Part shown: positions 51,792 through 64,000 of the stretch, one piece after another
How positions within the stretch are numbered: the first letter of the stretch is position 1
Layout: every line of letters begins with the position of its first letter
Origin: Lachnospiraceae bacterium
GTDB taxonomy: Bacteria > Bacillota > Clostridia > Lachnospirales > Lachnospiraceae
Direction: 5' to 3'
DNA length: 64,000 nucleotides
Assembly (NCBI GenBank): GCA_022794255.1
Contig: JAAWEL010000018.1
Coordinates: forward strand, 1-64,000
Translations under genes and position numbers: made by a program
The notes under the pieces: model-generated
Seen by the model: the letters and a program-made list of their open reading frames with translations, nothing else
Told to the model about the DNA's origin: nothing
The model's database searches: none

Positions 51792-52316
51792 ATGAATGAC
51801 CAGCAATTTGAAAGGAATATTGGTCGTATCTGCAGAAATGATAAAGAAGGACTTCGGGAGATTTATGAGGATTATTGCCCTCTGATCTATTCCGTTGTCC
51901 AGGATATTCTGGGGAGCCGGGAGGATTCGGAGGATGTAACTTCTGATTTTTTTATCCGTCTCTGGGATATTGCAGATACATATCGGCCTGGAAAGGGCCA
52001 TCGGGCGTGGCTGATCACTATTGCCCGCAACTTAGCCATTGATTATCTGCGAAAGCGGAAAAAGGAGAGCCTTACTGCAGAGATTCCGGATTATCTGCAG
52101 GCAGGGGAAGATTCCTGCGAGGAGCTGTTGTGTCAAAAGCTTGGCCTTGAACAGGCATTGATGATTTTGAAGGAGGAAGAAAGGCAGATTGTTAATCTGA
52201 AAATTATGGGAGAGCTGACCTTCCGGGAGATTGCCTCGGTTCTTAAAAAACCACAGGGAACCGTGGCATGGTGTTACCGGACGGCGATTCGGAAGTTAAG
52301 GGAGGTGCAGCTGTGA
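51792..52316 (+). CDS. ECF-type RNA polymerase sigma factor
   Basis: 174 aa with region 2 (about 25-95, DVTSDFFIRLWDIADTYRPGKG and AWLITIARNLAIDYLRKRKK) and region 4 (about 115-170, ending TFREIASVLKKPQGTVAWCYRTAIRKLRE). Typical group IV (ECF) length. The stop overlaps the start of the anti-sigma-like gene by one base. Together with the membrane protein and VWA lipoprotein genes it makes a sigma/anti-sigma/effector operon. Targets unknown, perhaps this operon itself. Confidence 0.92.
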   Translation: MNDQQFERNIGRICRNDKEGLREIYEDYCPLIYSVVQDILGSREDSEDVTSDFFIRLWDIADTYRPGKGHRAWLITIARNLAIDYLRKRKKESLTAEIPDYLQAGEDSCEELLCQKLGLEQALMILKEEERQIVNLKIMGELTFREIASVLKKPQGTVAWCYRTAIRKLREVQL

Positions 52317-53377
52317 TGGACGAAAAACGACTAAAACAGGAATATAGGAACTTGAGACAGCAGGCGGCACCGGATCTGTGGGATAGGATTGAGAGCAGCT
52401 TAAAGGATCATCCAGAGCGAGTGAGAGAAGAGCTTTTCATGGAAAAGGAGCAGCCAGTCAGGAGATTGGAAGAAGGGAAAAAGAGGGCAGGAAGAAAGCT
52501 TTATGGTATGGCGGCAATAGCAGCGGCAATGCTGGCGCTTATGGTGACTGTCCCCAGGATGACAAAAGAAAAAGGCATGGGGGCAGGCAATGCCGTTCCG
52601 GAAGCGAACCAGGAATTTATGGCAGCAGCAACCACAGACCATTTGGAAGCAGTTCAGGAAACAGCGGTGGATGCAGGTTCTGGAATGAGCGGGGCCAAAA
52701 GCCAGGAGAGAGAGAATGCAGTCTGTGCAAAAGTGCAGGAAGAATCGGGAGAGATGGGAGAGAATATGCTCCTGCCCGGAAAGAGTGATGGATTGCCAGA
52801 GGGCGTGATAGATTACCAGCAGCTGCAGCTGGCGGCCTATCAGCCGATAACGGTTCCGGAAAATGCCCTGACAATACCTGAGGATTTCCAATACTTTTCC
52901 GAGGCGATTTTAAAGGATACACAGCTTTTGTGCGGAGGGACGGTTACTGGTGTGTCATTGGAGGAGGATTCTTCTGGAAGAGCAGTTAAAGTGGTCTACG
53001 AGATGAGTCTGAATCAGGTGTACTATGCGGAGGATTATACCACAGGCATGGACCAAATCATTGTGAAAAGTCCCATTGTTAAAACGGATGGAGATGAAGT
53101 GTATATCCTTTATCAGCTGCAGCAGGGGGGAACCTATCTTTTACCCCTTTGGAGGCAGGAGGGAGAGTGGGAGCTTTTATATCCCTTTGCTCCCCAGATT
53201 CAGGTGACAGGAGATGGGGCGTATCTGTTCCATTCCGGCTATGCCAGCCTGGTAAATGACACAACGGATGTGGTTCTTGGCAGCCAGGAGGGAGAGAATG
53301 ACTACTATTATGACCGGATGGTTCTCAGGTATGATGAGGATTTTATTTCTGATCTGCTGACATTAGTCGGACATTAA
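52316..53377 (+). CDS. Anti-sigma factor-like membrane protein
   Basis: 353 aa. Cytoplasmic N-terminal region (about 1-65), a transmembrane helix near residues 64-82 (LYGMAAIAAAMLALMVTVP) and an extracytoplasmic domain of about 260 residues. Start overlaps the sigma stop (TGATG) with GGAGGTG just upstream, and the N-terminal DLWDRIESSLK block fits an anti-sigma binding region. There is no ZAS zinc motif (HxxxCxxC). Function is inferred from gene order. Confidence 0.75.
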   Translation: MDEKRLKQEYRNLRQQAAPDLWDRIESSLKDHPERVREELFMEKEQPVRRLEEGKKRAGRKLYGMAAIAAAMLALMVTVPRMTKEKGMGAGNAVPEANQEFMAAATTDHLEAVQETAVDAGSGMSGAKSQERENAVCAKVQEESGEMGENMLLPGKSDGLPEGVIDYQQLQLAAYQPITVPENALTIPEDFQYFSEAILKDTQLLCGGTVTGVSLEEDSSGRAVKVVYEMSLNQVYYAEDYTTGMDQIIVKSPIVKTDGDEVYILYQLQQGGTYLLPLWRQEGEWELLYPFAPQIQVTGDGAYLFHSGYASLVNDTTDVVLGSQEGENDYYYDRMVLRYDEDFISDLLTLVGH

Positions 53378-53407
53378 GTCAGGCACTGCAATGGGAGGAA
53401 GGTTTAT

Positions 53408-55132
53408 ATGCATGCCCTCATCTGGGCAGTGAGAGGAATGAGGAAAATTATGAAAAATTCAAGTAGAATATTAAGGGGAATCTGTATAACCGTGGCAGCG
53501 ACTATGTTAAGCGGCTGCGGGGCAGGAGCTTCCAGAACTTCCGGCGCGGCAGCCGCGACCACGGCGGCAGCGGCCACGGCAGCAGAGACAGAAGCTCCGG
53601 CCGAAGTTTCCTATGGTTTTGAAGGGGTTGCAGAGGAAAGCATGGAATATGACAGTACTGTCCCGGCACCTGCCGGCGTACCCCGCAGCAGAAGGATTTC
53701 CGGAAAATATCAGGCGGCTTATGTTCAGGAGAATTTTAACGCAGAGGAATACAGCTACATTTCAGAGAATGGATATAAAAATGTGGCAGAGGATCCCTTG
53801 TCCACTTTCTCTGTGGATGTGGATACTGCCTCTTATGGAAACATACGGCGGATGCTTCAGGAAGGCAGCTCCATTCCGGCAGATGCTGTGCGGATAGAAG
53901 AGATGATCAACTACTTCCATTATGATTATCCCAAGCCGGAGGGAGAAGAGCCCTTTTCTGTGACAACGGAATATACGGATTGTCCGTGGAATGAGGAACA
54001 CAGGCTTCTGATGATCGGGCTGCAGGCAAAAAAGATTGATTTTGATAACCGCCCTTTGTCTAATCTTGTGTTTTTGCTGGATGTGTCTGGCTCCATGTAT
54101 TCGGATGATAAGCTTCCTCTGGTACAGAAGGCATTTGCCATGTTGGTGGATAACTTAGACCAAAGGGACCGGGTGTCCATTGTTACCTATGCTGGCTATG
54201 AATCTGTGGTTTTGGATGGAGTGCCAGGTAACAAGAAGAGAAAGATTGTGGCAGCACTCCAGGATCTGGAGGCAGGAGGTTTTACAGCAGGGGAGGCGGG
54301 GATTGAGAAGGCCTATGAGTTGGCGGAGAAGAATTTTATTCCCGGGGGAAATAACCGGGTGATTCTTGCCACAGACGGGGATTTGAATGTGGGAATCAGC
54401 AGCGAAAGTGGCCTTATCCGGCTGATAAAAGAGAAGAAAAAGAGCGGTGTCCATCTGTCCGTGTTAGGAGTAGGCACAGGCAATATTAAGGATAATAAGA
54501 TGGAGGCTCTGGCAGACAATGGAAACGGCAATTACAATTATCTTGACAGTCTGTATGAGGCAAAGAAGGTGCTGGTAGATGAGATGGGTGGTACCTTGAT
54601 CACAGTGGCAAAGGATGTTAAGATCCAGGTGGAGTTCAATCCGGAATATGTGGCAGGCTACCGGCTGGTGGGATACGAAAACCGTCTGCTGAGAAACGAG
54701 GACTTTAATAATGACCGGGTGGATGCAGGAGAGATCGGAGCCGGGCACACAGTCACTGCACTGTATGAGATTATCCCAGGCGGAGCCGGTGGGCAGACGC
54801 TAAAGTATCAAACCAGCCCAAAGTTGTCTGGGAGCTCAGAGCTTTTGAATGTGAGCTTGCGCTATAAAGCTCCCAATGGAGATAAGAGCAAGCTTATGGA
54901 GCATCCGGTGGAGGCAGACAGCTATTGTGAAAATATGTCGGAGGATCTGATGTTTGCATCAGCAGTAGCGGAATTTGGTATGGTGCTCAGAGACAGTGAG
55001 AATCGGGGAAGTGCTACCCTTAAGAGTGTGATGGAGCTAGCAGAGTCCTGCGTACATGCAGATTCTGATGATTATCGGAAGGAATTTCTTGAGCTGGTAC
55101 AGCTGGCAGATCGGAGAGAAGGAGGAGAATAA
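53408..55132 (+). CDS. VWA-domain lipoprotein (YfbK/Ywmc-like)
   Basis: 574 aa. The signal sequence ends in a lipobox LSGC with the lipidated Cys near residue 37; an Ala/Thr/Glu linker of about 25 residues follows. Then a YfbK-like N-domain (NPLSTFSVDVDTASYGNIRR-type block and EEMINYFHYDYP), a von Willebrand A domain with MIDAS DVSGSM at D225 and a TDGDLNVG motif, and a C-terminal DUF3520-like domain. Faces the outside of the membrane. GGGAGGAAGG is 7 bases ahead of the ATG. It is third in the sigma/anti-sigma operon. Ligand unknown. Confidence 0.9.
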   Translation: MHALIWAVRGMRKIMKNSSRILRGICITVAATMLSGCGAGASRTSGAAAATTAAAATAAETEAPAEVSYGFEGVAEESMEYDSTVPAPAGVPRSRRISGKYQAAYVQENFNAEEYSYISENGYKNVAEDPLSTFSVDVDTASYGNIRRMLQEGSSIPADAVRIEEMINYFHYDYPKPEGEEPFSVTTEYTDCPWNEEHRLLMIGLQAKKIDFDNRPLSNLVFLLDVSGSMYSDDKLPLVQKAFAMLVDNLDQRDRVSIVTYAGYESVVLDGVPGNKKRKIVAALQDLEAGGFTAGEAGIEKAYELAEKNFIPGGNNRVILATDGDLNVGISSESGLIRLIKEKKKSGVHLSVLGVGTGNIKDNKMEALADNGNGNYNYLDSLYEAKKVLVDEMGGTLITVAKDVKIQVEFNPEYVAGYRLVGYENRLLRNEDFNNDRVDAGEIGAGHTVTALYEIIPGGAGGQTLKYQTSPKLSGSSELLNVSLRYKAPNGDKSKLMEHPVEADSYCENMSEDLMFASAVAEFGMVLRDSENRGSATLKSVMELAESCVHADSDDYRKEFLELVQLADRREGGE

Positions 55133-55207
55133 AAGCACACAATATTCCGGTTGTGAACAATCCAGGAAGAATGGTGTTTGCTTTTGACATTGAGACAGAG
55201 TATATTG

Positions 55208-55240
55208 AGGGTGACAGGGAATACTTCCTGTCACCCTTTC
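55208..55240 (+). terminator. Terminator after the VWA lipoprotein gene
   Basis: GAGGGTGACAGG (55208-55219) with CCTGTCACCCTTTC around GAATACTT, ending in TTTC repeats. Lies 76 bp after the stop codon. The rest of 55241-55437 shows only a partly matching hairpin and a possible 18-codon peptide at 55379-55435. Confidence 0.8.
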
Positions 55241-55437
55241 TTTCTTTTATATAAGCAATTGATATGCCAGAAGAAAAAAGGCTTTTATTCTTTCGTGAAC
55301 ACATCACAGAATAAAGAAAAGCAGAGACAGGGTTTTTGGCTAAAAAGGGAGGTAACAAGGAGGTTGCACGCTCACACAATGGGACTCTGGAAACGGCAGT
55401 TTTGTTTGTGTTTTTGTGTACTTGTCCGAAGGTAGTT

Positions 55438-56307
55438 ATGGCAACGAGAGAGATTAAGAATCCGGTTTTAAGGAAATTGGCAGAGTATGGATTGATTACC
55501 CTGAGTATTTGGATCATGGTAATCGGGATTTATTTTTTTAAGTTTCCCAACAATTTTGCTTTTGGGGGAGTAACCGGCTTCTCCACGGTGATTGCCAGAA
55601 TGACCGGGTGGTCTGCTGGTGATTTCACTTTTTTTGTCAACACAGCACTTCTGGTGGTAGGCTTTTTATTTCTTGGCACAGATGTGGGAGTTAAGACGGT
55701 TTATGCAAGCATGCTGATGTCTTTTAGTCTTTCAGCGCTGGAACGTTTGTATCCCCTTGGAGGGCCTTTGACTCAGGAACCTTTGCTGGAGCTGATCTTT
55801 GCTATCTTTTGTCCTGGCTTTGGGTCAGCTGTGTTGTTTAACATTGGGGCATCCAGCGGGGGAACGGATATTGTGGCTATGATTTTAAAAAAGCATACGA
55901 GCATGAATATTGGCAGTGCTCTTCTTTTAGTGGATCTGACCTCTGTGGTAATGGCATTTTTTGTGTTTGGGCCCACTACCGGATTGTTTTCCAGCCTGGG
56001 CCTGATGGCAAAGTCACTGGTCATTGATGATGTGATTGAAAATATGAACCTGTGTAAATGCTTTAATATTATCTGTGATGATCCTGGACCTATCTGTGAT
56101 TTTATCATCAATGAGCTCCACAGAAGCGCCACCACCTACAAGGCAGAGGGGGCGTTTACCCATCACAATAAAACGGTGATTATGACAACCATGAAGCGGG
56201 TGCAGGCTATCAAACTGCGAAATTATATCCGGAAGGTGGAGCCCACAGCGTTTATCCTCATCTCCAATTCCAGTGAGATTATCGGGAAGGGATTTTTGAC
56301 CAGTTAG
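55438..56307 (+). CDS. YitT-family membrane protein (DUF161/DUF2179)
   Basis: 289 aa. N-terminal half with five or six transmembrane helices (WIMVIGIYFFKFPNNFAFGGVTG and GASSGGTDIVAMIL), and a C-terminal cytoplasmic DUF2179 domain (RSATTYKAEGAFTHHNKTVIMT). The YitT family's role is unknown. The ATG at 55438 is chosen with GAAGG 8 bases ahead; upstream in-frame sequence is unlike the family. A small possible leader peptide ends 2 bp before this ATG. Confidence 0.9.
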   Translation: MATREIKNPVLRKLAEYGLITLSIWIMVIGIYFFKFPNNFAFGGVTGFSTVIARMTGWSAGDFTFFVNTALLVVGFLFLGTDVGVKTVYASMLMSFSLSALERLYPLGGPLTQEPLLELIFAIFCPGFGSAVLFNIGASSGGTDIVAMILKKHTSMNIGSALLLVDLTSVVMAFFVFGPTTGLFSSLGLMAKSLVIDDVIENMNLCKCFNIICDDPGPICDFIINELHRSATTYKAEGAFTHHNKTVIMTTMKRVQAIKLRNYIRKVEPTAFILISNSSEIIGKGFLTS

Positions 56308-56346
56308 TGCAATGCTATTTGATAATATGTGAAACAAAACGATGCG

Positions 56347-56391
56347 ATGCCGGTGAAGAACAGGAAGAATGTTTTACACCGGCATTTTTAA
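56347..56391 (+). terminator. Terminator after the YitT gene
   Basis: ATGCCGGTG (56347-56355) pairs with CACCGGCAT (56377-56385), with a 21-base loop, then TTTTTA. Confidence 0.7.
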
Positions 56392-56510
56392 AGATAAGAT
56401 AACAGTCAGACAAAATTAAATAAGGTTCAGGACAGATGTGGCGGACTTTTGATTTCCTGCATATAGTAGAGTATCGAGTGAACATATCGGATTATATGAG
56501 GGGGATTACT

Positions 56511-57311
56511 ATGGAGCAGGAGCGGCTAATGCCATCAGCAGCCCAGCAGGAATATATAAAGAGAGAACAATTTCATAAAGGGAAAGTGACAGTAATCCGA
56601 GTAATGCTTCTGGTGCTGCTGCTTTCAGTGTGGGAACTCTGTACACAATTGGAAATTATTGATGATTTTATTTTCAGCTCTCCTTCCAGGGTGTTTTTTT
56701 GTTTTTGGGGAATGGTTCGGGACGGAAGCATTTTTGCACATATTGGTATTACACTTTTTGAGACGGTTGTAAGCTTTGGACTGGTGGTAATATTGGGGCT
56801 TTTGGCGGCGGTGGTGCTCTGGTCCAGCCGCAGTGTCTCGGAGGTGATGGAACCTTACCTGGTGATGCTAAACAGCTTACCCAAGTCGGCCCTGGCCCCT
56901 ATGCTGATTGTCTGGCTGGGCAACCATGTGCATACCATTGTGGTGGCAGCGGTGTCTGTAGCGGTGTTCGGTTCAATACTGACCCTGCATAATGGATTTG
57001 CGTCTATGGATGAAGATAAGATCAAGCTGATCCGCTCTCTGGGGGGAACCAGGAAGGATGTGCTGACAAAGGTATTGCTTCCCGGATCTGTACCGTTAAT
57101 CATCAGTAATATGAAGGTAAATATCGGGCTGTGCCTGGTAGGGGTGATTATTGGGGAGTTTCTGGCGGCGCAGAGAGGGCTGGGGTATTTGATTATTTAT
57201 GGGAGCCAGGTGTTTAAGCTGGATTTGGTGATGATGAGTATTGTAATTCTCTGCATCCTTTCTGCTGGCTTGTATCAGGGGATCACCTGGATGGAGAAAA
57301 AGGTATCCTGA
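56511..57311 (+). CDS. ABC transporter permease (SsuC/TauC/NrtB-like)
   Basis: 266 aa with about six transmembrane helices, and the cytoplasmic EAA-type loop SLGGTRKDVLTKVLLPGSVP near residues 188-206. Typical of nitrate/sulfonate/taurine importers. The ATG at 56511 has GAGGGGGAT upstream; the first 25 residues of the longer frame are not conserved. The matching ATPase is encoded about 4.8 kb away on the opposite strand (61349-62149), across the CooS operon. No substrate-binding protein gene is in the window. A bidirectional terminator follows. Confidence 0.88.
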   Translation: MEQERLMPSAAQQEYIKREQFHKGKVTVIRVMLLVLLLSVWELCTQLEIIDDFIFSSPSRVFFCFWGMVRDGSIFAHIGITLFETVVSFGLVVILGLLAAVVLWSSRSVSEVMEPYLVMLNSLPKSALAPMLIVWLGNHVHTIVVAAVSVAVFGSILTLHNGFASMDEDKIKLIRSLGGTRKDVLTKVLLPGSVPLIISNMKVNIGLCLVGVIIGEFLAAQRGLGYLIIYGSQVFKLDLVMMSIVILCILSAGLYQGITWMEKKVS

Positions 57312-57354
57312 AAAAATCTTCCGAATAGCTGTAATGGCTTTCGGAAGATTTTTC
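57311..57354. terminator. Bidirectional terminator between permease and CooS operon
   Basis: AAAAAATCTTCCGAA pairs with TTCGGAAGATTTTT around a 14-nt loop. It ends the plus-strand permease gene and the minus-strand cooS operon. Confidence 0.85.
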
Positions 57355-57391
57355 TTGTGACATATCTGGCTATCTGGCGCTCACATCTGTA

Positions 57392-58618
57392 TCAGTTGAT
57401 ATTCCACTCATACTTGCCTTTGGCCCCTGTCTGGTAGAAATCGGCATAGCTGATGCTGAAAATATCTTTATTTATTTTGCTTATATCGATCTGATTTTTG
57501 ATCAGGTACTGCCAATGGCCGGCATTTGCGATATTGCCCTGCAATAAGATGCCCTGTACTTTTCCATCTCTTAAGATAACCCGTTTATATTGGGACCGGT
57601 CTTCCCTGATCCGGATTTCGTCCCCCTCCTCCTCTCGGATTCTTCCCACACAGAGAGTGACAAGCCCGAAGAAATTGATGGTATTTTTCATGGCATAGGT
57701 ATCGGTATAATCGACTTTTTGGCCGCACATATTTTTTCCGGCGATCCGTCCCTGATCAGCAGCATTGGGCCAGATTCCGGACAGGCCGGTAATATCCCCG
57801 GCAGCATATATGTCATCCACAGAGGTTTTCATGGAAGCGTCCACGGTGATACCTCTGTCACAGACAATGCCGCTGCTATCTAAAAAGGCCAGAGACGGGC
57901 GGACGCCAGCAGCAACGATAATAAGATCACAGGCAATCGCCTCCCCATTATCCAGAACAACCTGACGGATTTTTTTATCTGATTCACAAAGAGCCTGAGA
58001 TGCTTTTCTTTCAAGAACAAAGCGGACACCGGCCTTCTCAAAAGCTTCCTGATAAGCATTGGCAGCGTGAGCATCTAGTTGAACAGGGAGAATCCGGTCA
58101 GCCATTTCTACCACAGTCAGTCTTTTTCCTCTTTCCAACAGACCATAGGCAGCATCCAGTCCCACCAGGCCAGAGCCAATAACCAATATATTTTGCGCTT
58201 GTTTAGCTTCTTTTACGATAGCCTGTGCATCGGAAAGATTTCTTAGTCCATATACATTAGAGGCCTTTCTCAGCTCTCCCACAGGGGGGATAAAGCTATC
58301 TGCACCGGCAGCAATGAGCAGCTTATCATAGGAGACAGCTTCTTTTGTGTCCAGCAAAATTTGCTTTTGATCCGGCTGGATTTTTTCAACCCGAACTCCG
58401 TTTCTCCATTGAACCTTGTATTTGGAAAAGAAATCATTTTCGGTAAAATCCAGTCCTTTTTCTGTTCGTTCCCCGGCAATATATTTGTGGAGCATACAGC
58501 GGGAATGGACATGCGTGTCAACGGAGACCATCAGGATTTCTCCAGCAGGATCCTGCTTCCGGATAGCTTTTGCTGCTTCCACGCCAGCTACACCGGCACC
58601 AATGATCACATATTTCAT
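57392..58618 (-). CDS. FAD-dependent NAD(P) oxidoreductase of the CooS operon
   Basis: 408 aa pyridine nucleotide-disulfide oxidoreductase-like enzyme. FAD-binding GAGVAGVEAA near residue 7, second Rossmann motif GSGLVGLDAAY near 148, and the AAGD motif (DDIYAAGDITG) near 275. No redox-active CxxC of the thioredoxin reductase type is seen. It starts 3 bp after the ferredoxin gene, so it is the last gene of the cooS-cooF operon and should pass electrons between ferredoxin and NAD(P). Similar gene triplets exist with divergent CODH genes in other clostridia, as I recall. Confidence 0.9.
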   Translation of the reverse strand: MKYVIIGAGVAGVEAAKAIRKQDPAGEILMVSVDTHVHSRCMLHKYIAGERTEKGLDFTENDFFSKYKVQWRNGVRVEKIQPDQKQILLDTKEAVSYDKLLIAAGADSFIPPVGELRKASNVYGLRNLSDAQAIVKEAKQAQNILVIGSGLVGLDAAYGLLERGKRLTVVEMADRILPVQLDAHAANAYQEAFEKAGVRFVLERKASQALCESDKKIRQVVLDNGEAIACDLIIVAAGVRPSLAFLDSSGIVCDRGITVDASMKTSVDDIYAAGDITGLSGIWPNAADQGRIAGKNMCGQKVDYTDTYAMKNTINFFGLVTLCVGRIREEEGDEIRIREDRSQYKRVILRDGKVQGILLQGNIANAGHWQYLIKNQIDISKINKDIFSISYADFYQTGAKGKYEWNIN

Positions 58619-58621
58619 TGT

Positions 58622-59068
58622 TTACACCTCCTCCACACGAATTGCCTTTTTGGGGCAGGCTTTGACACAAGAGGGTTCGCCGCCTGCATCTGCACAAAAA
58701 TCGCATTTAATGATCTTGCTTTTTGTCACTGTGTCTGGTTTTGGGACACCGAAGGGACAGTTCATGACGCACATAAAGCAGGAGCCGCACCGGTTCTCCT
58801 GATATAGCACATGGCCGCTTTCCGGGTCCTTATATAGGGCTCCGCTCATACAGGATTTGACACATTCCGGATCATCGCAATGGCGGCAGAAGAGTGGACG
58901 GTATTGTCCTTTCTCATCCTTCAGGATAAAATTCCGGGATTCATTTTCCGGATCTGTCAGATCCAGATCGTAGATGGTTCCCTTTGTTTTTCGGTGTGCC
59001 TGCATACAGGCGGCAGAACAGTTCTTACAACCATCACATTTGTCGTATTCGATGATGATGCGTTTCAT
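58622..59068 (-). CDS. cooF: CooF-like 4x[4Fe-4S] ferredoxin
   Basis: 148 aa. Four Cys clusters: C11-x2-C14-x2-C17-x3-C21, then FCRHCDDPECVKSC, CGSCFMCVMNCPFG, and CDFCADAGGEPSCVKAC, giving four cubanes like the CooF/HycB/DmsB electron carrier family. The ATG at 59068 is used, as AAGGGG lies 8 bases ahead; a GTG three codons earlier is possible. It would carry electrons between CooS and the flavin oxidoreductase downstream. Genes abut closely (16 bp from cooS). Confidence 0.92.
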   Translation of the reverse strand: MKRIIIEYDKCDGCKNCSAACMQAHRKTKGTIYDLDLTDPENESRNFILKDEKGQYRPLFCRHCDDPECVKSCMSGALYKDPESGHVLYQENRCGSCFMCVMNCPFGVPKPDTVTKSKIIKCDFCADAGGEPSCVKACPKKAIRVEEV

Positions 59069-59083
59069 ATTCCCCACCCCTTT

Positions 59084-60967
59084 CTATATCTGAAGTCCCT
59101 GACGCTTTTCCAGAATGATTTGTTCTAAAATGTCGGCAGACTCACGGGCATTTCCATTGATGATAACCTGGCCGCCAGTCAGAGATTTCATATCTTCTGT
59201 GAGGACCTGTATGGCAACCTTGCTTCCTGTTACAAAGGGAGGCAGCCCTAAATGGAGAGGCAGTCCTAAGGCCAGTCCGTAGCAACCGTCTGCCAGAGCC
59301 TGTTCTTCCAGCCACTGAGCAGCAGAGAGGACCAAGGGAAGTTCAGGCAAATCTACCTTCAAAGCCTCAGCCAGTTCAGTAGCCACGATTTCCAGGCGGC
59401 CGATAGCCAGACAGGGACCGAAGTTTAATACAGGAGGGATTCCCAGCTTTTCGCAGATAGCCCGCAGCTTCGGTCCGGCGTATTTGGCCGCCTCCGGAGT
59501 CATAAGCCCGCAGTTTTCAATACCGCCGGAGGAGCAGCCTGCTGTCAGCACAATAATATCTCTTGCTATCAGTTCTTTTACCAGATCTACAGTTAATACA
59601 TCATGGCCTCCGGCTGTTAAGTTGGAACAGCCCACCACCCCGGCTACACCTTTGATGTCCCCGGAGGTGATCAGATCGATCAGAGGTTGCCAGCTTCCAC
59701 CCAGGAATTTCTTTAAGGATATCTCGCTAACTCCGGTGAGCGTGTTGTCATTGCCGTGGTCTGGCATCAGGTTCAAGGAAACGCTACCCCGGCGCTCCTG
59801 GTAGGCAGCTATGATCTCATCAATAATCTCATCAGTCACTGCCGGGCGGTTCTCAAAATCAAATTCCTTTAGCTGAGCATTGGCCTTTTTTGCCACATTG
59901 TCAATACAGATTTGTTTGATCTTTAACTTATCGCAGATCGGCTCAATTCCCGGAAGGGTGCAGTTAAACTCAGAGATCACCGCATCGATTCCTCCGGTTG
60001 CCAGAATGGCCTCGCTGGTATAATTGTTGCCTGCATGGCCATCAAAGATTTCTGTGTAGTGGGCGCCGCGAAGCTGCAGATCCTGTCCCACACAGGTACA
60101 GCCTACCAGCTTAAATCCTTTTGCCCCGGCCTTTTTTGCCTTTTCCTTTATATCCTCATCAATCAGGCGATCCTGCAGGAAGGTGAACATGGAGTGCTGA
60201 TGGCCGGTGATCATGATATTTATGTAATCCGGATCAATGACTCGCAGTCCTACGGGAGCAAAGCGAATCTTTGGCTCACCCAGCACGATATCATTTAAAA
60301 GATTTGTCAGCACCAGACCATGAATCCCTGTGGAGATACCCAGCTTTAAGCAGTCTAAAAGCATATTGACCGGATCGGAATTTAAGTTGGTGGAGCATTT
60401 CACAACACCATGAAACACCTCGGATTTAGCGCCTCCAGGCAGAATACCGAGCTCCTTCCACTTTTTATAGCGGGGGGCATAGGAGAGCTTTTCGGTCAGC
60501 TCCATCTTTTCATATTCCGGCAAATACAGATCCCGCAGTACAGCGTCAGCCACAGCCTCTGCCCGCTTGTGGAGATCCTCCTCCTCAATGCCAAACAGGG
60601 ATGCCAGACGGTTTAAGGTGTTGATGCCTTTGATCTCGCCGCCTGTTTTTGCCACATTCTTAACGTTACGTGCTGTGTTTTCCACTACATGGATGTAGCA
60701 GCCGGAGCCGGAGGCTACGGCCCGCAGAAGATTTCTGGTGACAATGGTGTCTGCATTGGCGCCGCAGATTCCCCGGGGGGATTCCGGTGTGATTCGGCAA
60801 GGACCGTTAGCGCACAGGCGGCAGCAGACACCCTGAAGCCCGAAAGCGCACTTGGTACTCTGACTTTCTACCCGATGGTGGGAGGTTTCCATGGGGAGTG
60901 AGGCAATGTAGCCTTCCAAGGGCTTGTCTGCGCTTTTGCAGGTGTTGCATCCATAACATTGATTCAT
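59084..60967 (-). CDS. cooS: Divergent anaerobic CODH catalytic subunit (CooS-like, possibly non-CO enzyme)
   Basis: 627 aa. D- and B-cluster Cys are kept (C40, C48, C49, C52, C57, C68), plus an extra N-terminal CxxCxxC (C4, C7, C10). All six C-cluster ligands of C. hydrogenoformans CODH-II can be aligned: H256, C292, C336, C447, C478, C519. Second-shell residues differ: the catalytic His of the proton channel (H93 in CODH-II) is Y91, further channel His are replaced (VVENTAR region), and the Lys that holds CO2 (K563) is Q556 (LEEQALAD). GSCVDN around the last Cys is GPCLAI. CO oxidation in the normal way is doubtful; a different Fe-S cluster or reaction may apply. AAAGGAGG precedes the ATG. 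Confidence 0.88.
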   Translation of the reverse strand: MNQCYGCNTCKSADKPLEGYIASLPMETSHHRVESQSTKCAFGLQGVCCRLCANGPCRITPESPRGICGANADTIVTRNLLRAVASGSGCYIHVVENTARNVKNVAKTGGEIKGINTLNRLASLFGIEEEDLHKRAEAVADAVLRDLYLPEYEKMELTEKLSYAPRYKKWKELGILPGGAKSEVFHGVVKCSTNLNSDPVNMLLDCLKLGISTGIHGLVLTNLLNDIVLGEPKIRFAPVGLRVIDPDYINIMITGHQHSMFTFLQDRLIDEDIKEKAKKAGAKGFKLVGCTCVGQDLQLRGAHYTEIFDGHAGNNYTSEAILATGGIDAVISEFNCTLPGIEPICDKLKIKQICIDNVAKKANAQLKEFDFENRPAVTDEIIDEIIAAYQERRGSVSLNLMPDHGNDNTLTGVSEISLKKFLGGSWQPLIDLITSGDIKGVAGVVGCSNLTAGGHDVLTVDLVKELIARDIIVLTAGCSSGGIENCGLMTPEAAKYAGPKLRAICEKLGIPPVLNFGPCLAIGRLEIVATELAEALKVDLPELPLVLSAAQWLEEQALADGCYGLALGLPLHLGLPPFVTGSKVAIQVLTEDMKSLTGGQVIINGNARESADILEQIILEKRQGLQI

Positions 60968-61016
60968 TGTAATACCTCCTTTAGATATGTGGTATTTTGG
61001 TGTATCCATTTCAACC

Positions 61017-61102
61017 GTCAGTATATTTATATTCTGACAAATACCAGTTCTTGAAACTATGAAAAATTTCTCATAAGTAGTTGGAAAAAAATTTGAGAAA
61101 TT
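61017..61102 (-). promoter_or_regulatory. Control region of the cooS operon
   Basis: Upstream of cooS lie two dyad elements. A 22-bp near-palindrome at 61017-61038 (GTCAG at one end, CTGAC at the other, A/T-rich middle that on the minus strand contains a TATACT -10-like hexamer). A 9-20-9 inverted repeat at 61065-61073 and 61094-61102 (AATTTCTCA / TGAGAAATT). No good -35 was identified. The remaining 60968-61300 shows nothing coding. Confidence 0.5.
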
Positions 61103-61299
61103 AAAAGGATAAGTTAAATTTTACTATAAACGAGAAAGAATTTCAACAAAAATTGGCAATGTTGGAGAGAAAGGAAACTGTTGCCGTGAATCCAGGAGAG
61201 AACGTTTTCCAAAAGCGGTGACATGGGCCGATCTTTCCTTTTTGAACGAGGTATTATGGGAAGTAAAAATGGTTGGTGAAAAACAAATTTCACTTTAAT

Positions 61300-61342
61300 A
61301 TATTAAAGGGGGGCGCCTGTCCGTTTTGGGACAGCTTCCCCC
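61300..61342 (-). terminator. Terminator of the ABC ATPase gene
   Basis: On the minus strand GGGGG-CTGTCC pairs with GGACAG-CCCCC (three-base internal mismatches), then TTTAATA. It lies between the ATPase gene and the cooS promoter region. Confidence 0.7.
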
Positions 61343-61348
61343 TGTTTT

Positions 61349-62149
61349 TTACCTGTCTGTTTCTTCAGAAGGAAGATCCTCCTGCAGCATTTTCCACACC
61401 TGATTAAAATATAAAGAAAATTCCCGGGCATTCCTGCGCTTTAAAGGGCTGTTATATTCTGGAGGAAAATCGACCGGCAGTATAGCCTTAATCCGGCCGG
61501 GACGGCTAGAGAAAATGATGATCCGGTCCGCTACACTGATGGCCTCTGATAAATCATGGGTGATAAGAATCGCAGTTTTACCAGTGCTGCGGATGATGCT
61601 GCTGATATCATCACACACAGATAGCCGTGTCTGATAATCCAGGGCGGAAAAGGGCTCATCTAAGAGAAGCAGGTCCGGTTTCAGGGCAAGAGTACGAATC
61701 AGTGCGGCTCTCTGACGCATGCCTCCAGACAGCTCAGAGGGGCGGGCTGTCTCAAAGCCTCCTAAGCCGTAGGTATGCAGCATGTGGGACAGCTCCTGAC
61801 GGGATTGCGGATTAAGTTTTTTTTGAATTTCCAGCCCCAGAGCCGTATTGTCATAGATACTCCTCCACTCAAACAAGTGATCCCTCTGGAGCATATAACC
61901 GATTTTGGTATGCTCGTTTTCAGAACCTTCACCAATAGGAATGTCATCCAAAAGAATGGAACCTTCCTCTGGCTTTATAAGACCACAGAGAAGAGAGAGA
62001 AGAGTGGACTTGCCGCAGCCGGAAGGGCCGACAACAGCAAGAAATTCCCCGGCAAAAACAGTGAAGGATATATGGGAAAGGGCCGGGGTCTCTCCGTCCG
62101 GTGAGTGATAGGAATAGCTGACCTCACAGACCTTTAGTTTTTGGTTCAT
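61349..62149 (-). CDS. ABC transporter ATP-binding protein (SsuB/TauB/NrtD-like)
   Basis: 266 aa. Walker A GPSGCGKSTL near residue 42, Q-loop region YMLQRDHLFEW, signature LSGGMRQR near 138, Walker B LLLLDEPFSALD near 158, switch His in ILITHDLSEA. This is the nitrate/sulfonate/taurine group. AAGGAGGTACCC precedes the ATG at 62149, and the longer frame upstream is not ATPase-like. Partner of the permease at 56511. A separate transcript on the minus strand. Confidence 0.93.
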   Translation of the reverse strand: MNQKLKVCEVSYSYHSPDGETPALSHISFTVFAGEFLAVVGPSGCGKSTLLSLLCGLIKPEEGSILLDDIPIGEGSENEHTKIGYMLQRDHLFEWRSIYDNTALGLEIQKKLNPQSRQELSHMLHTYGLGGFETARPSELSGGMRQRAALIRTLALKPDLLLLDEPFSALDYQTRLSVCDDISSIIRSTGKTAILITHDLSEAISVADRIIIFSSRPGRIKAILPVDFPPEYNSPLKRRNAREFSLYFNQVWKMLQEDLPSEETDR

Positions 62150-62247
62150 GGGTACCTCCTTAAAAGGATTATATTCTATGATATGAGAAGGAAAAGACAG
62201 GGGTGTTAGCAGGAGAACAGCAGAGATGAGGAAACGGAGGAACATAA

Positions 62248-62275
62248 CAAAAAGGCTGTCTCCTTTGACAGCCAT
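62248..62275 (-). terminator. Terminator of the first XRE-like gene
   Basis: Minus-strand GGCTGTC (62267-62273 complement) pairs with GACAGCC around AAAGGA, then five T. Lies between xre-like gene 1 and the ABC ATPase gene. Confidence 0.75.
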
Positions 62276-62328
62276 CGAAGGTGAGATAAACATGAGTGAC
62301 AACCGAAGTTTTAAAAATTTTCAGAATC

Positions 62329-62547
62329 CTATTCATCTTCCGGTTCGTCAGGGAGAAATTGAAAAATATCATTGGGAGTACACTGAAGAATCTGACATAG
62401 CTTTTCCAAATTGTCATACTGGATGGAACGGGTTTCATTGTTTACCATTTTATTAAAGTTTTGATAGCTTAAGCCAATTCTTTTGTGCAGCCAGTATTTA
62501 GTAAGCCTTCTCTCCTGCAGGATTTCCAGCACGCGCAGACGAAGCAT
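62329..62547 (-). CDS. XRE-family helix-turn-helix protein 1
   Basis: 72 aa Cro/CI-type HTH. RRLTKYWLHKRIGLSYQNFNKMVN forms the HTH, and IQYDNLEKLCQILQCTPNDIFQF is the usual C-terminal half. GGAGG lies 10 bases ahead of the ATG. It has a weaker-conserved neighbour copy at 62705-62905. Target and partner unknown. No toxin gene is next to it. Confidence 0.85.
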   Translation of the reverse strand: MLRLRVLEILQERRLTKYWLHKRIGLSYQNFNKMVNNETRSIQYDNLEKLCQILQCTPNDIFQFLPDEPEDE

Positions 62548-62704
62548 TGATACATACCTCCATGTCTCATTTATACATGAGATGATACAATATTTTTCAA
62601 AGCTTTATAAATAACCTGAAAATTGGCTAATAATTAAGTTATCTAATGAAAACGTGCAAACAGAGCTAGTTCATGACAGGCTAAATATGGTCCCTGATAT
62701 CAGG

Positions 62705-62905
62705 TCATATATTACTTGGATTTATACTGCCAGGGGAGTATTGGAGAATCTGAAACAGTTTTTGCAATTGATCGGATGGATCCGGCAATTGTTCCTTGTT
62801 TCCTGTGACTTTGAAATTTTGATTGTAAAGGCTGGTTTTTTTGTATAGACAATATTGAATCAGGCGTCTTTTTCTTTGTGTTTCAAAAGCTTGTAGACAA
62901 GTCAT
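62705..62905 (-). CDS. XRE-like protein 2, diverged copy
   Basis: 66 aa. Begins MTCLQAFETQRKRRLIQYCL after an excellent GAGGAGG site. Aligns with the neighbour copy at (R)RL, QNF and QLQKLFQILQYSP but has lost the usual HTH spacing residues (KVTGNKEQLPDPSDQ replaces KMVNNETRSIQYDN). The frame is open to a normal stop, so it is not plainly broken. It could be a decaying duplicate or a competitor of the first protein that no longer binds DNA. Confidence 0.55.
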   Translation of the reverse strand: MTCLQAFETQRKRRLIQYCLYKKTSLYNQNFKVTGNKEQLPDPSDQLQKLFQILQYSPGSINPSNI

Positions 62906-63094
62906 GAATAAACCTCCTCTATAATTTATTGATGTACTTGGATAATATAGTATTTCCACGATTTTTATAACTAATGTATCTATTATCTAATGAAAATATT
63001 GGACAATCCTTTTATAAAAATGCTCAAAACCACAATAGTGTATCTGTCCCATTATCCATAAGTTTCCTTGTCCACTGCGTGTGCGCTTTCCTAA

Positions 63095-63123
63095 TTGAAA
63101 CTCCTGCAATATTATGGTAAACT
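63095..63123 (+). promoter_or_regulatory. Promoter of mscL
   Basis: TTGAAA (63095-63100), 17-bp spacer, TAAACT (63118-63123), about 48 bp before the mscL start. Confidence 0.65.
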
Positions 63124-63170
63124 TAAGGATGTGATTTAATCAAGAAAATGGAAAATACAGGAGGTACTAC

Positions 63171-63578
63171 ATGAAAAAGTTCATGGAAGAATTCCGGGCA
63201 TTTGCCCTGCGGGGAAATGTGATGGACATGGCTATAGGTGTGATTATCGGAGGTGCGTTTTCCGGGATCGTTACATCCCTGACGGATAATTTTATCAATC
63301 CGATTTTGAATATTTGCACCGGCCATGCAAGGTACACATTGCAGGATGCAGCTGGCTTTGTGTCAGCGTTTTTGTCTTCTGTGGTAAATTTCATTATTAT
63401 GGCATTTATTTTATTTTGCCTTATGAAGGTGGTTAATAAAGCAGCGGGATTGGGAAAGAGGAAGCCGGAGGTGCCAGCCGCTCCCACAACAAAACTTTGT
63501 CCATTTTGCAAGAGCGAGATTCCCTTAGAGGCAACCCGCTGTAAATACTGCACCTCTCAGCTGAGCCAGGAGGTTTAA
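63171..63578 (+). CDS. mscL: Large-conductance mechanosensitive channel with C-terminal zinc ribbon
   Basis: 135 aa. Classic MscL N-terminus FMEEFRAFALRGNVMDMAIG, then two transmembrane helices (about 18-45 and 65-88), and the loop with the NPIL motif. Opens under hypo-osmotic shock. Beyond the usual end is a short linker and a zinc-ribbon: C110-x2-C113 and C124-x2-C127 (KLCPFCKSEIPLE, TRCKYC). The canonical C-terminal helical bundle is replaced by this domain. AGGAGGTACT precedes the ATG. Confidence 0.93.
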   Translation: MKKFMEEFRAFALRGNVMDMAIGVIIGGAFSGIVTSLTDNFINPILNICTGHARYTLQDAAGFVSAFLSSVVNFIIMAFILFCLMKVVNKAAGLGKRKPEVPAAPTTKLCPFCKSEIPLEATRCKYCTSQLSQEV

Positions 63579-63625
63579 AAGCAAGATGATTTACGCGAGC
63601 TAGGGGGAAAAGGCAGGAAGGACAG

Positions 63626-64000
63626 ATGGAACTGGCGCTGGTTACAGTTGAAAAGATAACGGAGATGTTCTTAATTATGCTGGCTGGGGCGGCGGCATTC
63701 CGCTGGAAGATCCTGGACAGTGCCTCAAATAAAAAAATGTCAGGATTGTTGTTGAAGGTTATCTCCCCTGCCATGCTTTTCATGGCTTACCAAATTGAAT
63801 TTGAGGGAGAACGGCTGAGGGGACTTTTGGTGACAATGGCATTGTCCATGGCCAGCTTTGCGTGGACGATTATTCTGGTGAATCGATGGATTCCCTTAAA
63901 AAAGCATGAAGATGCTGCGATAGAGCAGATGGCGACAATCTATGCCAACTGTGGCTTTATCGGCATTCCGTTAATCAATGGGATCCTGGGAATAGAGGGT
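63626..64000 (+). CDS. AEC-family transporter (auxin efflux carrier-like), partial
   Basis: First 125 codons only; the gene runs off the window. N-terminal part with four hydrophobic stretches, MFLIMLAGAAAFRWKILD and a YANCGFIGIPLINGIL motif that is typical of the AEC family. GGAAGGAC precedes the ATG, 47 bp after mscL. Probable organic acid or amino acid exporter; the substrate cannot be inferred from this part. Confidence 0.85.
   Translation, partial: MELALVTVEKITEMFLIMLAGAAAFRWKILDSASNKKMSGLLLKVISPAMLFMAYQIEFEGERLRGLLVTMALSMASFAWTIILVNRWIPLKKHEDAAIEQMATIYANCGFIGIPLINGILGIEG

Follow-up and report, generated by a model that had tools for sequence, protein, structure and literature searches.

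Can an enzyme that keeps every ligand of the carbon monoxide dehydrogenase (CODH) C-cluster, with other residues at the positions usually tied to CO chemistry, still act on CO? This question is raised by a cooS-like gene in a 64,000-nucleotide stretch of a Lachnospiraceae bacterium (assembly GCA_022794255.1, contig JAAWEL010000018.1, positions 1 to 64,000; hereafter the window). The original prediction held that the encoded protein lacks residues needed for CO chemistry and could be an enzyme of the CODH-V type, which carries an oxygen-containing Fe-S cluster and has no CO activity. Our analysis places the protein in a different group, clade C of the CODHs, and we give about an even chance to the reading that it forms a CO-competent, NAD(P)-linked module with the products of the adjoining cooF and fnor genes.

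The window belongs to a genome of 3.42 Mb that is 86.8% complete (G000). Its CooS exceeds the NCBIfam TIGR01702 cut-off by 270 bits (748.5 against 478), matches the Pfam Prismane family at E 1.5e-143 and finds its best match among solved CODHs in 6t7j (E 3e-103, residues 26-625). Since this alignment covers nearly the whole length of the protein, the match is not due to chance, and together these matches bear out the call of a CooS-like enzyme. The gene starts at ATG 60967, with a strong ribosome-binding site, AAAGGAGG, just upstream. Against the profile for the hybrid cluster protein (HCP), TIGR01703, the protein scores 27.9 bits, far under the cut-off of 360.8. The prismane-family search of G000 returned a single match, cooS itself, and found no second CODH and no HCP.

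We then inspected the residues of the window CooS position by position in an alignment. All six C-cluster ligands (H256, C292, C336, C447, C478 and C519) are present and in register, as predicted, and Y91, Q556, the GPCLAI loop and the N-terminal C4, C7 and C10 were each confirmed, with neither a His at position 91 nor a Lys at position 556. The D-cluster (C40, C48) and B-cluster (C49, C52, C57, C68) cysteines are all intact. In a 27-row alignment C7 and C10 of the N-terminal motif are invariant and C4 is kept in at least 90% of rows; some other relatives have fewer N-terminal cysteines, and the motif is missing from the CooS of Thermoanaerobacter kivui.

A residue table of 155 proteins, built without open reading frames (ORFs) below 550 aa, without two duplicates and without copies of the window protein itself, separates this enzyme type sharply from other CODHs. 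The six ligands and Tyr91 are universal among the 97 proteins at least 56% identical to the window CooS, and Gln556 occurs in 96 of them. The lone exception has Pro at that position; it comes from a metagenome-assembled genome in which the ORF (L021:3978-5858) ends early at 561 aa, probably through an assembly error or decay of the gene. The Tyr/Gln pair occurs in none of the 58 CooS below 56% identity. These all have Lys at the 556 position (58/58), with His (20), Tyr (34) or Asn (4) at the 91 position. By type they comprise 22 proteins with Glu for the first Cys and Tyr/Lys, as in CODH-V, 12 with Tyr/Lys, 4 with Asn/Lys, 17 with His/Lys and 3 with His/Lys and Asp for the second Cys. One further position, absent from the original prediction, lies two residues before Gln556: Glu554 is Glu in 96/96 Tyr/Gln and 34/34 Tyr/Lys rows, and 94% of the 17 His/Lys rows carry Ser there.

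The trees gave the same division. All Tyr/Gln rows form one clade in a tree of 100 rows, in which the close relatives had been thinned to 15 of 79 (35/100 rows; Shimodaira-Hasegawa-like approximate likelihood ratio test, SH-aLRT, 100), and again in a hand-picked 48-row subset of the same 100 (19/48 rows; support 100/100, with bootstrap 100). The diagnostic residue columns stayed in both trees, and the named anchor of clade C was T. kivui CooS. The expectation of a divergent CODH clade is thus borne out. In a sample of 398 genomes of the phylum, 36 match the window CooS at E 1e-120 or better, and the matches fall into 19 at 57% identity or more (the window's own included, one of them partial) and 17 at 42% or less. 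The published signature of group C-1 within clade C comprises kept ligands, Tyr/Gln, a type II D-cluster and an N-terminal Cys motif (Inoue et al., 2019, Table 2; PMC6344411; the papers cited here are covered in selected passages), and the same paper links group C-1 CODHs to FNOR, CooF and an NsrR/IscR-like regulator. The features of the window CooS are those of this signature, and by sequence the gene is therefore a further member of the described group.

This placement bears on the original prediction of a CODH-V- or HCP-type hybrid-cluster enzyme acting on hydroxylamine or nitrogen oxides. Tyr91 and Glu554 are common to the clade-D-like sequences and, according to PMC6344411, to the HCP site, and under midpoint rooting the clade of CODH-V (structure 7b7q) adjoins the Tyr/Gln clade. 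The structure 7b7q also ranks first against an AlphaFold model of the window CooS; this model, yet, has a mean predicted local distance difference test (pLDDT) score of 64.6, falls below 50 over the active-site stretch 547-571 and was built on a shallow alignment (27 rows), so it serves to confirm the fold only. A Rrf2-type regulator in relatives, the kept Glu554 and a missing CooC could indirectly favor nitrogen oxide or hydroxylamine as substrate. Conversely, the window CooS lies outside the 7b7q clade, which groups 7b7q with 22 sampled Glu/Lys sequences as a separate lineage. The first Cys is kept in 97/97 proteins of the window's type and the Lys is absent from 97/97, whereas CODH-V has Glu and Lys at these positions, and exchange of Cys295 for Glu is probably a prerequisite for the hybrid cluster (PMC9311411). 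For CODH-V itself, nitric oxide reductase activity was not detected and hydroxylamine reductase activity was slow in the passages covered of the same paper. Given C292 and Q556 and the separate clades, the CODH-V assignment is not supported, and we regard a hybrid-cluster enzyme of this kind as quite unlikely.

What the Tyr/Gln pair means for CO chemistry can be judged from T. kivui. Its CooS (TKV_c08080) has been placed in clade C by a study that left clade C activity undecided and noted that the enzyme possibly came from an evolved strain (PMC13056359). We located the gene among the sampled genomes with the twelve cooS-locus primers of PMC8683389. The sequence L174 matches the target part of all twelve, one of them over 16 bases only; two of the twelve also match L173, and both acsA primers match L176. 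The gene came to light in the family of genome G085, where 3/20 genomes have a match, and not in the genus of G085, where 0/9 do. L174 has all six ligands, the Tyr (in CYVHH), the Gln (in PQWLEEQ) and the loop GPCLSIG. Together with L173 it forms the deepest branch of the Tyr/Gln clade, and it is 51-52% identical to the window CooS.

In extract of CO-grown T. kivui, the CO:methyl viologen activity dropped from 178.6 U/mg to 14.9 U/mg when cooS was deleted and reached 76.9 U/mg on complementation; CooS is reported to account for most CO oxidation in CO-grown cells (PMC8683389). Growth of a cooS1 knock-out of Clostridium autoethanogenum on CO was likewise impaired (PMC4895105). On CO in complex medium, the T. 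kivui mutant showed no growth over the 5 days in which its parent grows, and in mineral medium none that was sustained; purified CooSF1, a His-tagged protein made in strain DSM 2030, had 13.9 U/mg (PMC8683389). Three independent CO-adapted isolates share five mutations, with cooS not among them, and a wild-type strain overexpressing Ech2 grew on CO, although that isolate carried 21 mutations (PMC12056078). Production in DSM 2030 and common mutations that spare cooS weaken the evolved-strain caveat of PMC13056359 without removing it. If these reports hold, a Tyr/Gln CooS can be CO-active. Because Tyr, Gln and GPCL recur in T. kivui CooS, these substitutions are by themselves not proof of lost CO activity, and the original argument from Tyr91 and Gln556 to lost CO chemistry is not supported. 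The window CooS falls in a clade with reported CO oxidation as far as one deep-branching member allows. The main texts of PMC13056359 and PMC8683389, figures and supplements aside, contain no residue terms of this kind, kivui is absent from the text covered of PMC6344411, and a literature search likewise gave no such residue comparison for T. kivui.

The neighboring genes supply a plausible route for the electrons. We counted neighbors by tblastn in the close relatives, defined as the best 80 of 252 found (77-93% identity to the window CooS). CooF lies downstream of cooS in all 80 and FNOR in 78, and FNOR is missing from none of the 76 close loci with 1.5 kb of downstream sequence; the predicted grouping with CooF and a flavin NAD(P) oxidoreductase is well founded. 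CooF and FNOR are joined in single ORFs in two loci (L006:2258-4009, 583 aa; L009:7891-9618, 575 aa), and these fusions support direct electron transfer between CooF and FNOR. In a distant set of 20 loci (L114-L131, L173 and L174, with flanks of about 1.5 kb) CooF was found in 13 and FNOR in 11. Among NCBIfam models, the window's CooF and FNOR come nearest to PadI and PadH, which belong to an NADH-linked dehydrogenase; neither reaches the cut-off.

We therefore favor a module in which the window CooS has the CODH fold and would bind a C-cluster-type centre by all six normal ligands, with Tyr/Gln and Glu554 in place of the usual proton and CO2-stabilizing His/Lys pair. Electrons would pass from the B and D clusters to CooF, on to the FAD of FNOR and finally to NAD(P). 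Transfer from CO to NAD(P)+ is downhill, and reduction of CO2 by NAD(P)H runs uphill unless a low-potential donor is added. The likeliest reaction would be a slow, reversible CO/CO2 interconversion. In a host without detected acetyl-CoA synthase (ACS), it would proceed mostly in the direction of CO oxidation, yielding NAD(P)H, for scavenging or redox balancing and not for carbon fixation. In many relatives the module would be under Rrf2-type control. The sequence, the clade and the operon are established, as is the reported CO activity of an enzyme of this clade with identical residues; we infer in this scheme a dimer, CO as substrate, the direction of electron flow, the nickel content and the purpose in the window's host.

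Several points weigh against CO oxidation by the window enzyme. T. kivui CooS is merely 51-52% identical to it, has neither FNOR beside it nor the Cys motif, and comes from a genome with CooC. Purified CooSF1 was 15-fold (methyl viologen) and 231-fold (ferredoxin) less active than AcsAB and far below crude extract (PMC8683389), which makes trace AcsAB contamination or poor metal loading conceivable. Glucose-grown cooS deletion cells were the same as the parent, growth of the mutant in complex medium resumed after 7 days, and the source of the cloned cooS template is unstated in the sections covered (PMC8683389); in the CO-adapted strain CO-1, cooS was down-regulated (PMC12056078). In Clostridium autoethanogenum an acsA knock-out that kept cooS1 and cooS2 did not oxidize CO and produced some (PMC4895105). 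In the window genome, the ACS profile PF03598 found no match and CooC no match at E 1e-8, at 86.8% completeness. CODHs made without CooC can be nickel-poor or inactive, to an extent that differs between CODHs (PMC6006190; the titles of structures 6t7j and 6onc likewise). Finally, Rrf2-type regulators in relatives and O2-induced C-1 genes (PMC6344411) suggest a role in stress, for which CO oxidation offers no obvious explanation.

The distribution of ACS and CooC is informative here. Among 200 genomes of the window's family, clade C CooS (called at 55% identity or more) was found in 18 and ACS, called when E was below 1e-60, in 22. We disregarded thirteen weak ACS matches, with E values from 5e-4 to 4e-10 and frames of about 240-270 aa. 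ACS is present in 9/18 carriers and in 13/182 other genomes (Fisher p 1.2e-5). Such co-occurrence above expectation would suit a partner enzyme that reduces CO2 and so provides CO or disposes of electrons. This role has been put forward for CooS1 of C. autoethanogenum, where the acsA knock-out made extra CO and growth on H2/CO2 was better in a cooS1 knock-out (PMC4895105). We consider it very unlikely for the window enzyme, given that a strong ACS match is missing from half of the 18 carriers. CO2 reduction driven by NAD(P)H would also be uphill.

By length, none of the nine carriers without a strong ACS match, the window's genome included, has a second prismane of CODH size; in five of them no other prismane occurs at all. 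A homologue of T. kivui CooC2 at 54% identity or more occurs in 9/9 ACS-bearing carriers and in 0/9 of the others, so that the window enzyme could be either loaded with nickel or poor in it. One of these nine (G559) is an untidy case, with an ACS-profile match at E 8.6e-7 and a 33% CooC-like match about 1 kb away; within about 23 kb of its contig C23 (about 280-303 kb) lie the clade C CooS, an HCP-sized prismane, the weak ACS and the CooC-like gene. An unlikely possibility is that family members lacking ACS, CooC and any further CODH use their clade C CooS, free of nickel or poor in it, with CooF and FNOR as an NAD(P)H-driven reductase in redox stress, and that in CooC-bearing relatives such as T. 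kivui the protein is nickel-loaded and CO-oxidizing. If so, a Cys-ligated centre with Tyr91, Glu554 and Gln556 would stand midway from the C-cluster to the hybrid cluster, and one sequence type would have two metal states and two functions, set by the maturase.

Regulatory context bears on a related proposal, in which the module uses NAD(P)H to reduce O2, peroxide or a different oxidant and thereby protects Fe-S enzymes, with electrons running from FNOR through CooF to CooS, an active site that is possibly nickel-free and CO chemistry as a side activity. A Rrf2-type regulator lies upstream of cooS in 44/80 close loci (75 of the 80 have more than 600 bp upstream) and in 16/20 distant loci; that of L022 (L022:5199-5594) matches PF02082 at 103.9 bits and has the Cys spacing CX4CX8C. 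Within 300 bp upstream, sites with at most two mismatches to GACTRWWWYAGTC, which we take to be the IscR type 1 consensus, occur in 37/81 regions and in about 7% of mononucleotide shuffles, a control applied to a site first spotted by eye on the same, non-independent sequences. With three mismatches allowed the count is 55/81 against 46-49% of shuffles, and the signal as a whole is weak; site frequency is similar without an adjacent Rrf2 gene (17/40) and with one (20/41; ORF-based count). These observations, the absence of a close CooC from all nine carriers without strong ACS match and the O2-induced C-1 genes of C. ljungdahlii and C. acetobutylicum (PMC6344411) speak for a stress reductase. 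Against it, T. kivui needs CooS for growth on CO (PMC8683389), the literature passages covered describe no such activity of a clade C enzyme, and the window itself has no Rrf2 gene adjoining cooS, with one weak Rrf2 match elsewhere in G000, and no IscR-like operator upstream of cooS in the same test. We rate a stress reductase as unlikely.

The regulator neighbors could also fit the suggestion of PMC13056359 that clades C and D sense redox state and have no significant catalysis. The invariant active-site residues and the near-constant company of CooF and FNOR at the close loci argue for catalysis and against a sensor, although the latter counterpoint is limited by the distant loci, just 11 of 20 of which have FNOR, and we hold this reading to be highly improbable.

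The coordinates of the features are collected in the table. The cooS leader contains an imperfect dyad, GTCAGAATATAAATATACTGAC (61017-61038, minus strand); as an operator, GTCAG...CTGAC was set aside, a like dyad occurring in 0/80 other upstream regions. An Rfam scan of 52000-64000 gave nothing at the gathering threshold. Genes for a NitT/TauT-like ABC ATPase and permease (61349-62302, minus strand, and 56436-57311, plus strand) flank the cooS operon on opposite strands; no substrate-binding protein was among the eight ORFs of the cooS stretch scanned against Pfam. We rejected the transporter as a functional partner, for close homologues of both genes lie near cooS solely in the window, L003 and L012 among 81 loci. 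These three share a chromosomal site, and L003 has other genes in between. Farther away (51792-55132, plus strand), ORFs that by eye resemble an ECF-type sigma factor, probably an anti-sigma factor and a lipoprotein with a von Willebrand-type domain stand in a row.

Table. Positions in the window of the cooS operon and of the diagnostic codons of cooS.
Feature	Coordinates	Strand	Basis or remark
cooS, CODH-like catalytic subunit of clade C, structural group C-1	59084..60967	-	627 aa; profile, structure-sequence match, tree
cooF, ferredoxin-like Fe-S protein	58622..59068	-	Profile search; ORF listed from GTG 59077, ATG 59068 the likelier start by eye
fnor, FAD/NAD(P) oxidoreductase	57392..58618	-	Profile search; begins 3 bp past the cooF stop
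Possible sigma-A promoter TTGAAA-17-TAAAAT of cooS-cooF-fnor	61118..61146	-	Read by eye
N-terminal CxxCxxC (C4, C7, C10), possible extra Fe-S ligand motif	60938..60958	-	Alignment
D- and B-cluster cysteines C40, C48, C49, C52, C57, C68 (type II D-cluster)	60764..60850	-	Alignment; pattern of PMC6344411
Tyr91 codon (His in His/Lys CODHs)	60695..60697	-	Alignment
H256, C-cluster ligand	60200..60202	-	Alignment
C292, first C-cluster Cys (Glu in CODH-V types)	60092..60094	-	Alignment
C336, C-cluster ligand	59960..59962	-	Alignment
C447, C-cluster ligand	59627..59629	-	Alignment
C478, C-cluster ligand	59534..59536	-	Alignment
C519 within GPCLAI, C-cluster ligand	59411..59413	-	Alignment
Glu554, position of the HCP hybrid-cluster Glu according to PMC6344411	59306..59308	-	Alignment
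Gln556 codon (Lys in 58/58 CooS outside the clade)	59300..59302	-	Alignment

Eight records titled Spirochaetia, Spirochaetaceae or Treponema (L047, L048, L053, L055, L056, L067, L071 and L075) encode a CooS that is 78-80% identical to that of the window, a distribution that suggests horizontal transfer of clade C CooS.

A CO-active T. kivui enzyme with Tyr/Gln would mean that nature can perhaps do without the usual His/Lys pair. Three clades, C among them, are said to predominate in host-associated CODHs (PMC8776680), and the split in ACS and CooC among the 18 carriers separates nickel-loaded from possibly nickel-free use of the same enzyme. Whether clade C genes should be counted as CO utilizers in gut surveys hinges on which of the two applies. 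The literature covered also included PMC11338639, PMC10502027 and PMC7000372.

Among known systems, CODH-II of Carboxydothermus hydrogenoformans (1su6), which lies outside the sequence set of the tree, shares the fold and the six C-cluster ligands with the window CooS and differs in its GSCVDN-type loop, against GPCLAI. Its His93 and Lys563 correspond to Tyr91 and Gln556 of the window protein. CooS-V of the same organism (7b7q, group D-1) resembles the window CooS in its CODH fold, Tyr at 91 and Glu at 554; unlike it, CooS-V has Glu for the first Cys ligand, a kept Lys and an Fe/S/O hybrid cluster, and belongs to the neighboring clade. The type III D-cluster of group D-1 was not found in the window protein, whose C40 and C48 form type II. 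CooS1 of C. autoethanogenum, assigned to group C-2 (PMC6344411), has Fe-S protein and oxidoreductase genes downstream, as in the window (PMC4895105; PMC6344411), and shares Tyr/Gln by the definition of its group, not from its own sequence; its host, unlike the window's, is an acetogen with ACS.

T. kivui CooS and the window CooS have the same active-site residues and a CooF neighbor, and differ in that the former has no N-terminal Cys motif and no FNOR within the fetched stretch. The T. kivui genome carries CooC and, according to PMC8683389, ACS, whereas the window genome matches neither. Compared with group C-1 as described, the window locus has no adjacent NsrR/IscR-like regulator and sits between ABC transporter genes. 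With that group (Inoue et al., 2019; PMC6344411) the window CooS shares the ligands, Tyr/Gln, the type II D-cluster, the Cys motif and the CooF and FNOR partners.

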